A stretch of 64,000 nt of DNA from a virus: positions 1 through 64,000 of the IMG/VR virus record IMGVR_UViG_3300021088_000001, one strand, 5' to 3'. Each line of letters opens with the position of its first letter. The first letter of the stretch is position 1. This document shows positions 3,325-8,585 of this stretch, piece after piece. Position numbers and translations under genes: made by a program. The notes under the pieces are model-generated. The model was not told the DNA's origin and searched no databases. It was given only the letters and a program-made list of their open reading frames with translations.

Positions 3325-3353
3325 TTGACATGTACTCACATGGCTGCTATTAT
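3325..3353 (+). promoter_or_regulatory. Extended -10 promoter for the peptidase-like gene
   Basis: TTGACA at 3325-3330, a 17-nt spacer, and TATTAT at 3348-3353 preceded by TGC, giving an extended -10. The same TGCTATTAT element recurs at 4787-4795. Confidence 0.85.
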
Positions 3354-3399
3354 AACACGTATAGTTTACATGTACGCAAACTCATTAAAGGAGAACACG

Positions 3400-4752
3400 A
3401 TGCCACTTGGATTAGCGGGAACAATTATCATCCCACCACCACCACCTATGCCAGTATTACTTATCGCGCCATCTGCGCCATACAGCGTAGATATTACGTA
3501 TTACGCAAGTCCTACAGCATATCAAGGGCAAGAAGGATCTTGTGACGAGAATGCTATTTACAACATGCTGCCAATCATGGCGCGTGAGGCAGGATTCACT
3601 GTAAATGGTGTTGCAATGCAAGGCCAAACTGTTGTGACAGGTAATTATAATGACATTGACAGAAATGCATTGTATTATAATGAACGTACACACCTTGGGC
3701 CGGGATATATTAATAAAGATACTGGAAGCAACACACAAGACACATTTAATGTGATGATGCACACAGGTACATCAGATCAGAAGATTGGTTTTAAATATGA
3801 CCCAAGTAATTTATTTCTCGCGCCATCAGCAGACTCTCAGGCTCAAGCGTCGCATCAGTTGTTGACAGGCTGGACAACTTTTGATACGTGTCAGAGTCCG
3901 AGCACATTAGCAGCTATTGTGGCAACGAATCTTTACGAAGGCCATCCAGTGATGATGGACTTTATGGTGTTTGAGGGACTTGAGCGTCAGACAGCGCCAA
4001 TCGGAGATCCCACTGGCGCATGCCTTGGAAATTTACTAGGAAGACATGATGCAGAAATCAGCGGTGTAGAATTTGATTCTACAGGTAAGGCTATCTTCGA
4101 TGTGCAATCATGGCAAGCAGGAATGACATATAGGATTTATGTATCTGATATGTTGAATATCTCAAAAGATCCTAATTTTCCATCGTGGAGTCTTAACGGA
4201 CTATACACAATGGGTGGTAATGATGGATTAGATCAAATGGTAACTCAGGGGCGTGAAAAAGCAGCTAGTGATTATGTAGCAGTGTTTGGGCGTAGCGCTG
4301 ATCATGGTGGAGCTGTTTATTTTGGAGATGCTATGACCAAAGGTCTTATTACAGAGACACAAGCAATTGGCTTCATGATGGGCAGTCAAGAGTATAAAAA
4401 TCTCTACGGCAATCTCTCTGATTCAGACTTCGTAGGATTATTCTATCATAATGTGCTAGGTCGCACAGTGGATGCTGGAGGATTGGCATATTGGGACAAT
4501 GTGTTGAAGACGAGTGGGCGTGATGTTGTCATGGGCGGAATTATTGCATGTGTGCGTGATCACTCTACTGATCTCCTTGCACATCAATTCTTCACTAATG
4601 CATCTATCGTCTCACTAACTGGTGCAATCACATATCAAGATGATGGCTCACATTATGCTGCAGATGTGTTAGCTGTTCACTCTGTAACTCAGGATATTAC
4701 AACGATTGGTATAGCTGAAACAAGCCTTCATCACATCTTGTTTGGAGCTTAA
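3400..4752 (+). CDS. Papain-like cysteine peptidase fused to DUF4214
   Basis: 450 aa from ATG 3400, chosen because AAAGGAG lies eight bases upstream; the in-frame extension to 3325 would overlap the promoter. After a proline-rich N-terminus, residues about 42-53 read QGQEGSCDENA, a papain/C39-like nucleophile motif with Cys48. A GRHDAEISGV segment (His216) and a later FDVQSW segment fit the His and Asp/Asn partners. Residues about 310-420 form a DUF4214-like repeat (VLGRTVDAGGLAYW). DUF4214 is known mainly from secreted or surface proteins of bacteria. There is no signal peptide. The gene has its own promoter and sits alone upstream of the packaging genes. It may be a virion-associated or host-acting protease; this is inference. 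Confidence 0.65.
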   Translation: MPLGLAGTIIIPPPPPMPVLLIAPSAPYSVDITYYASPTAYQGQEGSCDENAIYNMLPIMAREAGFTVNGVAMQGQTVVTGNYNDIDRNALYYNERTHLGPGYINKDTGSNTQDTFNVMMHTGTSDQKIGFKYDPSNLFLAPSADSQAQASHQLLTGWTTFDTCQSPSTLAAIVATNLYEGHPVMMDFMVFEGLERQTAPIGDPTGACLGNLLGRHDAEISGVEFDSTGKAIFDVQSWQAGMTYRIYVSDMLNISKDPNFPSWSLNGLYTMGGNDGLDQMVTQGREKAASDYVAVFGRSADHGGAVYFGDAMTKGLITETQAIGFMMGSQEYKNLYGNLSDSDFVGLFYHNVLGRTVDAGGLAYWDNVLKTSGRDVVMGGIIACVRDHSTDLLAHQFFTNASIVSLTGAITYQDDGSHYAADVLAVHSVTQDITTIGIAETSLHHILFGA

Positions 4753-4815: not shown

Positions 4816-5178
4816 ATGGCTGGACCGGGGCGACCAAGATTGACGGCTGTTGTGCAGCCTGTGTTTATCAAGAAGAAGCACGAACTTGATAAAGTGCTTA
4901 AGGCTATTGAGAAAGGTAGTGTTGACGCAGTAGAACTCCTTGTGAATACAATGAACAGTGAAGTGGAGGATGAATCTCAAAAAGGGTTCATTCCTCTTAC
5001 AAGGAGACTAGAGTGCGCCCAAGCATTGCTTAATCTGCAAGTTAAAGTGGCGGATGTTATTTCTAGAGATCAGTTTGCAAGGCAGATTGCTGAAGTGAAA
5101 GTTAAAGGTTTGCCTAATAACCTAGAGATTAGTGAGAAGAGAGCTAGGATTAATTTCACTGAGATACAGGATGTGTAG
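4816..5178 (+). CDS. Possible small terminase subunit or packaging-associated protein
   Basis: 120 aa, beginning with a basic MAGPGRPRL segment followed by helical stretches. AAGGAGG precedes the ATG. The start is typical of DNA-binding small terminase subunits, and the gene is the last protein gene of comparable size before the large terminase, although the RNA unit separates them. No diagnostic motif is visible, so the assignment rests on position, size and composition. It could equally be an unrelated DNA-binding protein. Confidence 0.5.
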   Translation: MAGPGRPRLTAVVQPVFIKKKHELDKVLKAIEKGSVDAVELLVNTMNSEVEDESQKGFIPLTRRLECAQALLNLQVKVADVISRDQFARQIAEVKVKGLPNNLEISEKRARINFTEIQDV

Positions 5179-5181
5179 GGG

Positions 5182-5210
5182 TTGACAAATAAGAGTTTGT
5201 GTGTAATAAT
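5182..5210 (+). promoter_or_regulatory. Promoter of the structured RNA/tRNA unit
   Basis: TTGACA at 5182-5187 and TAATAAT around 5204-5210 (16-17-nt spacer), four bases after the preceding stop codon. No ORF starts for more than 450 bases downstream, while RNA structures begin at 5211. Confidence 0.7.
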
Positions 5211-5473
5211 GTAGATACTATGTAATGCTTGGCACTCGGTAGCATGCAGTGTGCCCCTTAGCCGAAAAGTGGGCACTGCACATAGTACTTATAAGAATTG
5301 AAGTAGTAACAACCGTGGGTGTGCAACACGTTGGGGCAGCACACATCTGAACGAGGACTAACACGGCTGATGAAGCCAAAAGGCAGAAACCCGAAAGGGT
5401 TCCGTGGAGTGATCCTACCTCGTGAATAACTGATCACCTCCCGGAACGTTGCTGATAGGTAAGCTATCAACTT
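5211..5473 (+). ncRNA. 5' module of a large structured phage RNA
   Basis: No credible ORF, but dense pairing. ACTATGT/ACATAGT (5217-5223/5280-5286) closes a three-way junction. Its arms are ATGCT/AGCAT (5225-5229/5241-5245) and GCAGTG..GCCC/GGGCACTGC (5246-5279). Their loops share TCGG/CCGA complementarity, a possible kissing contact. Next, CAACcGTG/CACGTTG (5310-5333) and TGTGC/GCACA (5320-5324/5339-5343) form an H-type pseudoknot. The hammerhead-like fold 5351-5423 and the hairpin TGATAG/CTATCA near 5452-5468 follow. The unit then runs into tRNA-Gly. Large ornate phage RNAs near tRNAs (GOLLD, ROOL) are a known precedent; membership is not shown here. Confidence 0.65.
5351..5423 (+). ncRNA. 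Hammerhead-like ribozyme candidate (type I)
   Basis: Stem I: ACGAGG/CCTCGT (5351-5356/5418-5423), an internal loop, then CACGG/CCGTG (5362-5366/5402-5406). The core CTGATGA (5367-5373) is followed by stem II GCC-AAAA-GGC, GAAA (5386-5389), stem III CCC-GAAA-GGG and T5400-T5401. All invariant hammerhead core positions are present, including the A15.1-U16.1 pair and H17 = U (a GUU triplet). Cleavage is predicted between 5401 and 5402. The deviation is an A·A at 10.1/11.1, where a G-C pair is usual; this could lower or abolish activity. The stem I internal loop and loop II could make the usual tertiary contact. Confidence 0.5.
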
Positions 5474-5481
5474 ATAATAAA

Positions 5482-5556
5482 GCAGTCTTAGCTCAATGGT
5501 GGAGCGAGTGTTTTCCAAACACAAGGACGTGATATCGGTAATCACAGGCTGCTCCA
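5482..5556 (+). tRNA. tRNA-Gly (anticodon TCC)
   Basis: A cloverleaf with acceptor GCAGTCT/AGGCTGC, D stem GCTC/GAGC, anticodon loop TTTCCAA (TCC) on an AGTGT/ACACA stem with one A·A mismatch, and T stem GTGAT/ATCAC. CCA is encoded at 5554-5556. The T loop is ATCGGTA instead of a TTCRA-type loop, so the normal T54-A58 pair is lost. It reads GGA codons, which suit this AT-rich genome. Confidence 0.75.
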
Positions 5557-5562
5557 AAGTCA

Positions 5563-5647
5563 TGCAAGTTGGCAGAGTGAATTATTGCAAAGGCTGATCC
5601 CCGGAGGCTATTGACATAGCCCGCAGGTTTGAATCCTGCACTTGCGT
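5563..5647 (+). tRNA. Class II tRNA-like gene, anticodon unclear
   Basis: Acceptor TGCAAGT/ACTTGCG (5563-5569/5640-5646), a short D stem GCA/TGC, a long variable arm GGCTAT-TGAC-ATAGCC (5606-5621), and T arm GCAGG-TTTGAAT-CCTGC (5623-5639). The long variable arm is that of Ser/Leu/Tyr-type tRNAs. The expected anticodon stem (about 5590-5606) does not pair convincingly, so no anticodon is assigned. CCA is not encoded (the sequence reads TACA). It could be a degenerate tRNA or a tRNA-like domain of the surrounding RNA. Confidence 0.55.
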
Positions 5648-5681
5648 ACAAAAATTATTAATTTTACCAAAGGAAAACAAT

Positions 5682-5900
5682 ATGATTGATCAAGCACAAT
5701 TAGACGCAGATAAGCAAGCCCTCCAAGATGCAACAGTGAAGCTGGCATCCGACCAAGCAGCATATGATGCAGCACAGCCTCATCTGACAGTGTGGCAAGA
5801 AGTAGAAGCACATGCAGTGAAATGGGGTGGAGAAGCTGAAGCAGAGTTGAAAGTTCTCGTGGCAAAAGGCCGTGAGCTTGTTGCGAAGATGTTTGCATAA
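5682..5900 (+). CDS. Small helical protein inside the RNA unit
   Basis: 72 aa with AAAGGAAAAC before ATG 5682. Almost entirely predicted alpha-helix, rich in Ala, Asp, Glu and Lys, with heptad-like spacing and no membrane segment. It lies between the tRNA-like gene and the second structured module and ends before the RNA structure starts. Codon use resembles neighbouring genes, which argues for real translation. Function unknown. Confidence 0.6.
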   Translation: MIDQAQLDADKQALQDATVKLASDQAAYDAAQPHLTVWQEVEAHAVKWGGEAEAELKVLVAKGRELVAKMFA

Positions 5901-5910
5901 AGAATTTTTG

Positions 5911-6385
5911 TCCGTTCACTAGGTTCAGTTTTCTTGGCGGATTTCTTCCCTAGTGTCAAATCGCTACAAGTATTCGGATAGGTGTAGCGCTCAAGTTAGC
6001 ACGGGAATCGGCGTACCTGAAGAGGGACCAGCAGCTAATTAAATACTTAAAGATTTGCATCTTTCCACAGACGGCTATCGTTCACGAGTGGTTACATGCA
6101 AGAGATAGGTCCACTACTACCTAGACCAGAAAGTAGAAATTTCAGTGCAAAGCTGAAATAGCAGAAACCCTTTAGAACTTAGTGTGTCGTGGGTGTGTTT
6201 CTGCATAAGACGGAGAGGGCAAGCAGCAAGGCTTGTCGGCATAGAGCATCGGTTGGCTGGCGACTATGCATGCTGAGTAGGTAAATCATAAGATAATTCG
6301 TATGGGCAATTACGGAGTAATTAATTCTGTACTAAGCATAATGTAAGTATGCGAATCTTGTGGACTGCTCAGCCTCTATTATGTG
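5911..6385 (+). ncRNA. 3' module of the large structured RNA
   Basis: About 475 bases without a credible ORF and with many paired elements: CACTAGG/CCTAGTG (5917-5955); CGCTACA/TGTAGCG (5962-5989); AAAGAT-TTGC-ATCTTT (6049-6064); interleaved CCAC/GTGG and CTATC/GATAG (6065-6108), a pseudoknot; GGACC/GGTCC (6025-6112); ATTTCAG/CTGAAAT (6139-6159); GCAGAAAC/GTTTCTGC (6161-6204); GCAAGC/GCTTGT (6219-6236); GCATAG/CTATGC (6239-6269). GCTGAG/CTCAGC (6272-6373) encloses AAGAT..TCG/CGAATCTT and two hairpins. CGTGGGTGTG (6188-6197) also occurs at 5314-5323. The module ends at an intrinsic terminator. Confidence 0.7.
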
Positions 6386-6420
6386 GCCCCGTATTCTATG
6401 AATACGGGGCTTTGTTGTTT
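6386..6420 (+). terminator. Intrinsic terminator ending the RNA unit
   Basis: An 11-bp stem GCCCCGTATTC/GAATACGGGGC with a TAT loop (6386-6410), then TTTGTTGTTT. It isolates the RNA unit from the large terminase gene. Confidence 0.9.
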
Positions 6421-6437
6421 ATATCACGGAAAATAAT

Positions 6438-7868
6438 ATGGCAGAAGAAAAACAAGTAGTGCTAGGGCCATGTAGCCTTAAGCAACAGATGGCATTATTG
6501 GACAGGAGCGATATTCTTATAGTTGGTGGTGCAGCCGGGGCATCTAAATCCTATATGGCACTTTTAAAGGCATTAGACCACTGTTCCGATCCTGCAGCAC
6601 GTGTATTAATTGTCAGACGTTCATACCCAACACTTAAAGTAGTCGGTGGGCTTGTGGACGAATCAAAGAATATGTACAAACAATTTGGTGCAGTGTTTAA
6701 TTCTCAGCAATTGGAGTGGCGTTGGCCTAATGGTGCAGTAATAAAATTTATGGCAATGCCAGACGACTTGTCAGAATTACAAGGGGCTGCTGCAACCTTA
6801 ATTATCTGCGATGAAGGTACGGAACTTTCTGTCGAAGGTATTCTCATGTTAAAATCTCGCCTTCGTGGAGCAAGATTCAAAGGTGTGATGCAATTAGTTA
6901 TAACATGTAATCCAGATCGTCAGAGCTATTTATATGATTGGGTCAAATACTCACTAGACGAAGAAACAGGGATTCCTAAGTCTGGCACTGAGAAAATATT
7001 ACGATGGTTTGTTGTATTGAACAATAAAATATATTGGGCGAACTCTAAAGAGGAACTCTATAAAGAGCATGGAATGGGTTATACAGAGGGAGTAGATTTT
7101 ATTCCTAGCTCTCTAAGATTTATTGCAATGAATATTTACGATAACCCTGTTCTGATGAAGAATAATCCGGGGTATCTTGCAAATCTTTTATCAATGTCTA
7201 GAGTGAACCAGCAGCGATTTCTGAAAGGTTCTTGGACAGCAGTTATTGAAGGTAATAGTGTATTCAACAGATCTTGGGTACAATTTGTTGACAACCCTCC
7301 AGTTAATCCTACTTCCAAGGTCAGGTCGTGGGACTTGGCGTACAGCGTGCCTTCTGAGTCATACCCTAATCCCGATTGGACAGTAGGGGTATTAGTATCA
7401 AGAGATAGGTTTGGCACATATTGTATTGAAGATGTGAAGAGGTTCAGGAAGCTTACAGATGGTGTTGTCAAGGAGATAATCAAGACCTCTATTGATGATG
7501 GACAAGATATTCCAGTCACTATCCCAAAAGATAATGGTGGTGGTAAAGCTGCTTCTTCTATTTTCCTGCGCATGTTTGGAGAGGCTGGAATAAATGTGCG
7601 AGGAATTCCTATTACTAACCACAGCAGTAAAATGCAGAGATTCTTGCCATTTTGTACATATGCAGAATCTGGATCACTTACAATGGTTAAAGCCGATTGG
7701 AATGACGACTTTTTAACAGAGTTAGAGTATTTCTGTGGAAGTAGAAATCAGAAGGATGACCAAGTTGATGCTGTAGCAGATGCGTTCATAACATTGTCTA
7801 GGCAGGTTAATACTCCTGTCATAGCCCCTCCCTCAATGACCAAACCAAACCCTGTTCCCTCCATTTAG
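6438..7868 (+). CDS. terL: Terminase large subunit
   Basis: 476 aa. The N-terminal ATPase has a Walker A-like GGAAGASKS (residues about 30-38) and a Walker B TLIICDEGTE (about 120-129). The C-terminal RNase H-like nuclease has the first acidic residue in VRSWDLAYS and a later DDQVDAVADAF segment. It is the packaging motor that translocates DNA into the prohead and cuts the concatemer. A GGAAA sequence is the only ribosome-binding site. The gene follows a strong terminator with no clear promoter, so it may be read from upstream or by a non-canonical promoter. Confidence 0.93.
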   Translation: MAEEKQVVLGPCSLKQQMALLDRSDILIVGGAAGASKSYMALLKALDHCSDPAARVLIVRRSYPTLKVVGGLVDESKNMYKQFGAVFNSQQLEWRWPNGAVIKFMAMPDDLSELQGAAATLIICDEGTELSVEGILMLKSRLRGARFKGVMQLVITCNPDRQSYLYDWVKYSLDEETGIPKSGTEKILRWFVVLNNKIYWANSKEELYKEHGMGYTEGVDFIPSSLRFIAMNIYDNPVLMKNNPGYLANLLSMSRVNQQRFLKGSWTAVIEGNSVFNRSWVQFVDNPPVNPTSKVRSWDLAYSVPSESYPNPDWTVGVLVSRDRFGTYCIEDVKRFRKLTDGVVKEIIKTSIDDGQDIPVTIPKDNGGGKAASSIFLRMFGEAGINVRGIPITNHSSKMQRFLPFCTYAESGSLTMVKADWNDDFLTELEYFCGSRNQKDDQVDAVADAFITLSRQVNTPVIAPPSMTKPNPVPSI

Positions 7869-7955: not shown

Positions 7956-8585
7956 ATGGCAGTTGTCTACTGGATACATTTAGCAGAACATACTGACATG
8001 TTCACGCAAGGATATATTGGAGTTAGTAAGAATACGGCTAAAGATAGGTTTAAGGTTCATAAACATCTTGCCACAAGCGGAAAAGGTATTTATGTAATAA
8101 ATAACGCTATTAGAAAATATGGCGACAGTATAAAACTCCAAACTTTAGTTGTGGCAGATTTGCAGTATTGCTACGATTTAGAAAGAAAGCTCCGTCCTGA
8201 GATAAATATCGGATGGAATATTGCTAGAGGCGGTGAGCAGCCTCCAATGACTGGCAGGAAACATTCAGATTACACTCGAAAAAAGATGAGTGACAGTTCT
8301 CACAGAATAAGAAAACCGCATTCAGAAGAGTTTAAAAATAGAATAAGAATTGCTAACAGTGGAAAGAAACCTTGGCAAAACTGTAAAGCTAGAAAACACA
8401 TCTGGTTAAAAGCTGCAGAAATAGCTGTGCTAGTCAGACAAAATCCTAAGTGGAGTTACAAAAGGCTCGACAAGATATTTAATGGCTCTACAGGCAGGGT
8501 CATAGATATGGCAAGAGCAGGTTGGTGGCCTGAAAAAGATCCCGCTTGGGTGGAATTTAAAACTGATGCGGAGAAAAGTTTATGA
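7956..8585 (+). CDS. GIY-YIG homing endonuclease with NUMOD3 motif
   Basis: 209 aa. The N-terminal GIY-YIG-like domain (about 1-90) has YWIHLAEHT...GYIGVSK, a downstream LERKLRP helix carrying the catalytic Glu, and NIARGG. A NUMOD3-type DNA-binding segment follows (MTGRKHSDYTRKKMSD and a second copy near HSEEFKNRI), then a C-terminal helical domain. AAGGAG precedes the ATG. It is a free-standing gene between terL and the portal; its TGA overlaps the portal ATG by four bases (ATGA). Such genes spread by cutting intronless or endonuclease-free alleles. Confidence 0.88.
   Translation: MAVVYWIHLAEHTDMFTQGYIGVSKNTAKDRFKVHKHLATSGKGIYVINNAIRKYGDSIKLQTLVVADLQYCYDLERKLRPEINIGWNIARGGEQPPMTGRKHSDYTRKKMSDSSHRIRKPHSEEFKNRIRIANSGKKPWQNCKARKHIWLKAAEIAVLVRQNPKWSYKRLDKIFNGSTGRVIDMARAGWWPEKDPAWVEFKTDAEKSL

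Follow-up and report, generated by a model that had tools for sequence, protein, structure and literature searches.

The put RNA of phage HK022 comprises two stem-loops in about 70 nt and suppresses transcription termination far downstream (PMC9378689). It works in the early operons of a temperate lambdoid phage by binding the beta-prime zinc-binding domain of RNA polymerase. Pseudomonas phage PAK_P3 makes two RNAs of about 100 nt, sRNA1 and sRNA2, which were proven by RNA-seq and are late and abundant, with late/early ratios of 91- and 12-fold (PMC4933390). The same paper cites T4 band C/D as small RNAs of a virulent phage without known function. GOLLD and ROOL, also without known function, are phage-borne RNAs often found near tRNA islands (PMC12286853). 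Here we describe a predicted RNA family located ahead of the terminase large subunit gene (terL), starting from a 64,000-nt stretch of viral DNA (positions 1 to 64,000 of IMG/VR record IMGVR_UViG_3300021088_000001), hereafter the window. The window RNA resembles put in being phage-encoded, in having two adjacent hairpins, and in standing ahead of terminators and operons (PMC9378689). GOLLD and ROOL, in contrast, are much larger and oligomeric.

All window features given below between 4816 and 7868 lie on the plus strand. Upstream of the RNA unit is a 120-aa ORF (4816-5178), a candidate for the small terminase subunit (TerS). It had no accepted match of its own in Pfam or PHROG, and the support is indirect: tblastn relatives with 33-45% identity are located upstream of terL in nine related loci, and the homologue in locus L041 matches PHROG 641, terminase small subunit, with E 0.016. 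Just upstream of the TerS candidate, a 475-aa ORF (3325-4752) contains a DUF4214 domain (Pfam E 2e-16). A further ORF on the minus strand (1596-2255) reads, by sequence, as a resolvase/invertase-type serine recombinase.

A first-pass annotation had framed the unit by a promoter at 5182 and a terminator at 6386-6410, and both were recovered. The sigma-70-type promoter (5182-5210; TTGACA-17-AATAAT) matches at 11 of 12 positions and is plausible, not proven, because chance alone would give about 3.7 promoter-like sites over the same distance. Where the tRNA unit of L020 begins, 31 nt are 84% identical to this promoter region. The intrinsic terminator (6385-6411) has a 12-bp stem with 7 GC and a T-rich tail, and its U-tract begins 26 nt ahead of the start codon of terL (6438-7868; PHROG 979, E 6e-136; Pfam Terminase_6N/6C). 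Enclosed by these signals are module 1, the leader RNA of the tRNA unit (5211-5481), a tRNA-Gly (UCC; 5482-5553), a class II tRNA-like gene (5563-5647), a 72-aa ORF (5682-5900), and module 2, whose 5' part (5901-6160) is lineage-specific. The annotated tRNA-Gly was confirmed with the Rfam tRNA model (47.6 bits; cut-off, 29), whereas the class II gene is weak, scoring 26.4 bits with this model against the gathering cut-off of 29. The ORF is present as annotated, belongs to no known family, and gave no family matches in PHROG or Pfam. ARAGORN does not report the tRNA-Gly, whose T-loop departs from the usual UUCRAxx. This program misses many tRNA-like genes, both in the window (5482-5647) and in the islands of L018, L021, L022, L032, L041, and L068. 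The missed genes have odd T-loops or D-arms, as in the window tRNA-Gly, and include Trp-like genes immediately upstream of terL whose anticodon loops read CUCCAAA. The 1.2 kb as a whole is a tRNA-island transcription unit, as is usual ahead of terL among these phages.

The same annotation had described two dense structure modules within the unit, likened it to GOLLD and ROOL without claiming membership, and suggested that it may be a new class of phage RNA. The folding energies are ordinary, with a minimum free energy z of -1.70 for module 1 (11 of 200 shuffles as good) and -1.62 for 5901-6420, which spans module 2 (7 of 100 shuffles as good). At curated scores, no Rfam 15 family except tRNA was found in the unit; at E up to 10, there were only chance-level matches and a weak hammerhead, and neither GOLLD nor ROOL appeared. 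The decamer CGTGGGTGTG, reported as common to both modules, is near chance as a repeat (about 0.1 chance occurrences are expected between 263 and 475 nt), and the covariance model found no second copy of the conserved RNA in module 1; the module 2 copy is, however, part of a conserved hairpin. About 80 loci contained no noteworthy relative of module 1, and no homologues of 5901-6160 were found in the related loci compared, apart from the stretch 6143-6256. Homologues were likewise lacking for the parts in which the annotation had paired pseudoknots and a possible kissing loop. By sequence comparison, the conserved part of the unit is 6161-6268 only. What stands of the proposed new class is an uncatalogued structured RNA of 60-110 nt at this position, not an ornate unit of 1.2 kb.

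When the unit or member cores served directly as DNA queries against about 50,000 phage records, only chance pieces were returned. The TerL protein alone as a query led to one RNA-bearing relative, L001 (TerL 63% identical), and an alignment of two TerLs led to four distant relatives. The major capsid protein and its alignment were the productive bait and yielded about 60 further loci, many of which hold terL with a tRNA island upstream. L001 has a promoter-RNA-terminator gene of about 215 nt ahead of terL without tRNAs, and the 3' part of this RNA gene aligns with window positions 6161-6268. The same core was recognized by eye before terL in L018, L020, L041, L046, L052, L056, L065, and L071. 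Exact patterns (GCAAGG..TCGG..GCATCGGTTGG and GCATCGGTTGG..ACTATG) gave only one real match, L004, which is on the same contig as L001; the matches in L005-L008 and L013-L015 lie in coding DNA and were dismissed as chance.

A covariance model, R1, was built from nine aligned cores with two hairpins (P2, 7 bp; P3, 6+3 bp) and searched against 1 Mb in 69 sources. Beyond its training set, R1 detected L076/L081 (E 8e-11), L074, L047, L042, and L064 (3e-4), with weak matches in L063 and L027. Every new member was on the terL strand in the interval upstream of terL. A match in L017 (E 0.04) was rejected as false, as it was seen by eye to lie inside coding sequence. A 16-member model, R2, was then applied to 43 whole records; significant copies occurred singly in a genome, and L062 was added as a member. 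A motif-only DNA pattern, in which pairing was not demanded, identified six more phages scoring 47-57 bits, whereas the 80 pattern matches retrieved from genomes of bacteria and archaea scored 19.3 bits or less and provide a useful negative control. L020 was excluded from the models for an insertion in P3; it keeps GGAGAGG, P2, and GGTTGG at the same place. The family was found in at least 23 diverged phages, in which the other TerLs are 33-64% identical to that of the window. R2 gave no significant copy in the whole records G004-G006, G013, G016, G017, G034, and G035, of which the uncultured ones are possibly incomplete, and no significant match in Limnohabitans DC31, Curvibacter P26059A, ventosus, PA10, vB_PseuGesM_254, or PAK_P3.

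The core in the window (6210-6268) scores 59.4 bits with R1 and 50.7 bits with R2 (E about 1e-11 to 2e-11). Its order follows the family consensus of GUGGAGARR, P2, a spacer of 1-4 nt, and P3. GUGGAGARR, represented in the window by GGAGAGG at 6212-6218, is unpaired and nearly invariant. P2 (6218-6224/6231-6237) has a freely varying stem and a loop of AGCAAG, as in the window, or ANNNNUG. P3 (6240-6244/6264-6268, with an inner GC/GC and a GGUUGG region) also varies in its stem, with an apex of GCA..GGUUAGCGUGGC, or of GCAUCGGUUGGNNGC in the window's clade. P1, a lineage-specific extra hairpin, precedes the core in the window, L001, L018, L041, L042, and, by eye, L137. In the window it spans 6161-6204 (GCAGAAAC/GTTTCTGC, with inner CCCUUU...CGUGGG), and CGTGGGTG of the first-pass annotation is its 3' side. 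The P1 interior is near-constant (CCYUUUNGACCUAAUUCGUCGUGGGNG), though less so in the window, and its stems differ yet pair (GCAGAAAC/GUUUCUGC, GGAAGC/GCUUCC, GCCAG/CUGGC, GGCAG/CUGUC, and GGCAG/CUGCC). The smallest members of the family are about 60-215 nt. Long hairpins were also noted by eye directly before the core in L027 (1350-1434), L047 (2880-3019), and L062 (3860-3960); their pyrimidine-rich loops, UCUCUCUCC and CUUUCUCC, may pair with GGAGARG as a putative pseudoknot. No reading frame or peptide is shared across the core, and stops fall in different frames.

A lack of covariation in diverged homologues was named by the first-pass annotation as a refutation, and the result of this check favours an RNA. 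In seven members outside R2, 98.1% of the predicted pair cells were paired, and 13 of the 16 pairs had double changes. The covariation score of this held-out set was 0.979, compared with 0.236 after shuffling and 0.06-0.16 with one strand slid. For all 23 members, 91.7% of the cells were paired, with a covariation of 0.866 versus 0.206 shuffled. The held-out and slid controls are the safer figures because the alignments were fitted to the model. RNAalifold recovered the same two helices from the aligned set. G-U pairs make up about 10% of the paired cells of all 23 members, which indicates that the RNA is read in the direction of terL, since the opposite strand would have A.C mismatches at these places. 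These results show that the predicted P2 and P3 are maintained by compensatory changes in the terL-sense strand, and, on this comparative evidence, the RNA family is almost certainly real. In Rfam, the conserved core had no match at gathering score and none credible at E 10, and the same was true of the cores of L001, L056, and six other loci. No Rfam 15 family or open-access paper was found that describes the 6161-6268 RNA, and absence there is not proof. The family is new; its kind is not, since tRNA islands of phages were already known to carry structured RNAs other than tRNAs.

The RNA is usually the last one of the tRNA island. It lies 3' of all tRNAs in 17 of the 18 members with recognized tRNAs in the fetched locus (by ARAGORN, with the window tRNAs from Rfam), and the core of L046 and L124 begins about 8 nt downstream of a tRNA. 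L063 and L081 have a tRNA or tRNA-like gene 3' of the RNA. A terminator follows the core in 13 of 24 loci by script (L020 counted) and in four more by eye, at a distance of 8-45 nt in nearly all cases and 116 nt in the window. The next start codon, which is usually that of terL, comes 20-35 nt after the beginning of the U-tract in ten cases. No obvious terminator was seen 3' of the RNA in L052, L139, L141, and L123. No sigma-70-like site was found on the plus strand between the RNA and terL in the window, L001, and L041. In L001 and L041, a 12/12 promoter stands ahead of the RNA with no tRNA from promoter to terL, and L052 is arranged similarly by eye. In L139 and L141 (TerL 33%), the RNA follows a small ORF in the TerS position, without significant similarity to the window TerS candidate, and is itself followed by other genes and then terL. 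These arrangements show that the predicted RNA lies at the end of the tRNA-island unit, just ahead of the packaging/virion genes.

By eye, terL is interrupted near its 5' end by group I intron-like sequence in L027, L047, L048, L064, and L074, and other relatives have homing-endonuclease-like genes between the RNA and terL. The window encodes a homing endonuclease at 7956-8585 (PHROG 314, E 3e-18), between terL and portal, with relatives in L025 and, further downstream, in L020. A second conserved RNA, termed RNA B (GGUUGGCCGUAGA...GAACGGCGUGAUG-NNNC-UAAA-GNNN-AUG), was observed in the tRNA islands of six relatives (L018, 2515-2600; L021, 2675-2750; L022, 2680-2750; L041, 3990-4085; L045, 775-850; and L068, 4000-4075). 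It stands just before tRNA-Ile, with a covariation of 0.46 versus 0.18 shuffled, and was not seen by eye in the window.

As for function, we tentatively favour, at somewhat less than even confidence, a put-like role in which the 6161-6268 RNA gates read-through into terL. This reading is favoured because the RNA stands where the tRNA unit ends and the packaging operon begins, with the terminator squeezed against the terL start. The RNA would act from inside the transcript, at this junction. RNA polymerase starting from the upstream promoter would transcribe the RNA and then reach the terminator 20-35 nt before the terL start codon, so close that there would be no space for another canonical promoter. 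A stop at the terminator would yield the tRNAs and a small RNA, and read-through would yield the packaging/virion mRNA. The RNA would control read-through via RNA polymerase or a bound factor, as the two-hairpin put RNA does. Like put, it has two stem-loops within about 70 nt, as P2 and P3 occupy 61 model positions and are supported by covariation. Put was compared by description only, and the window family is marked by its conserved GUGGAGARR leader and P3 apex; put also differs in its setting, early operons as against the position before terL. Several observations weigh against cis gating. A terminator also directly precedes terL in L021 and L068, which lack the RNA, so the RNA is not the sole way past the terminator. 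Some members have no obvious terminator after the RNA (the four named above), and two have a tRNA or tRNA-like gene downstream of it. Late promoters of phages may look unlike sigma-70 sites, and the promoter-RNA-terminator units of L001 and L041 fit a small RNA gene equally well. Attenuation through pairing between RNA and terminator was considered and is unlikely, as the terminators differ among members while the RNA is conserved.

Those units are among the evidence for a trans-acting stable small RNA, which would end at the terminator, be released from the adjacent tRNA by normal tRNA processing, and accumulate late in infection. We rate this only slightly below cis gating. Such an RNA might base-pair through the Shine-Dalgarno-like GUGGAGARR or bind a host protein at the conserved P3 apex, and the strong conservation of unpaired bases speaks for a trans-acting RNA. 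Furthermore, PAK_P3 makes its two abundant late small RNAs in the same pre-terL interval (PMC4933390). These resemble the window RNA in lying in a tRNA-bearing interval from a DUF5681 gene to terL beside a related terminase, with a TerL 38.6% identical to that of the window. However, nothing significant was found when the PAK_P3 interval was compared with R2 with filters off, so its RNAs are positional analogues only. Unlike the window RNA, sRNA2 looks tRNA-like. By eye, it reads as an expanded tRNA-like RNA (L113, 6313-6432) with acceptor GCTGTGT/ACACAGC, T-arm loop TTCGATT, and a CCA end; this would account for the 11 nt that, as published, are identical to tRNA T-loops. A trans-acting RNA is also harder to reconcile with a location that is tighter than it needs, never elsewhere in the genome and almost always last in the tRNA unit, and with the several members that have no adjacent terminator.

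A packaging RNA serving the neighbouring terminase, as phi29 pRNA does, would suit the location between the TerS candidate, or an ORF in its place, and TerL in many members. This is improbable, given that the RNA does not accompany the packaging motor throughout: relatives that share the TerL family and measure about 80-94 kb (for example, G004, G006, G017, G034, and G035, possibly incomplete) have no significant match, so the RNA seems non-essential for this terminase. Also, no pRNA-style intermolecular loop-loop complementarity was apparent by eye. Still less probable is a DNA element, a pac/cos-like terminase site with inverted repeats. Its placement at the terminase genes would be natural, but G-U, which suits RNA of a single strand only, accounts for about one-tenth of the retained pairs, the stems vary freely while unpaired bases are conserved, and promoters and terminators frame the RNA. 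A large ornate RNA like GOLLD or ROOL, suggested by the nearby tRNAs and the long non-coding stretch, is scarcely credible with 60-110 nt conserved, ordinary folding energy, and no Rfam match.

Module 1 contains a hammerhead-ribozyme-like motif at 5362-5406, detected by descriptor search and, short of the 52-bit cut-off, by Rfam HH9 (20.4 bits; E 0.003). Stem I (CACGG/CCGUG) is followed by CUGAUGA, stem II (GCC-AAAA-GGC) is closed by an A.A mismatch and followed by GAAA, and stem III is CCC-GAAA-GGG with U5400. The CUGANGA...GAA core, A15.1-U16.1, the NUH triplet, and stems I-III are thus all present, and the 10.1-11.1 base pair is replaced by A.A. Natural U-U mismatches at 10.1-11.1 are known, and U-U was reported as the most active mispair (PMC3088659); an A-A mispair is not reported in that paper. 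The descriptor, which permitted the A.A mismatch after the motif had been seen, matched once in the window, not at all in 1.26 Mb of other loci, and three times in 273 Mb of random sequence. From this sequence, hammerhead-like cleavage would be expected after U5401. A wider proposal, that virulent phages have in this family their first widespread put-like RNA antiterminator, protein-free or factor-assisted and set as a gate between tRNA island and packaging operon, and that a hammerhead-like ribozyme processes the same window transcript, is unlikely to hold in full.

The band C/D RNAs of T4 lie in the T4 tRNA operon. They and the PAK_P3 small RNAs are small structured RNAs of phage tRNA islands that remain without known function, and a family with covariation offers a handle on such RNAs. 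With 23 diverged members, a model of two helices, conserved bases outside the helices, and minimal genes that stand alone with their own promoters (L001 and L041), this family makes the predicted pairs accessible to mutational tests. If the RNA does gate the packaging operon, it would represent a new way of timing the expression of late genes; a trans-acting RNA would be a new conserved regulator in phages.
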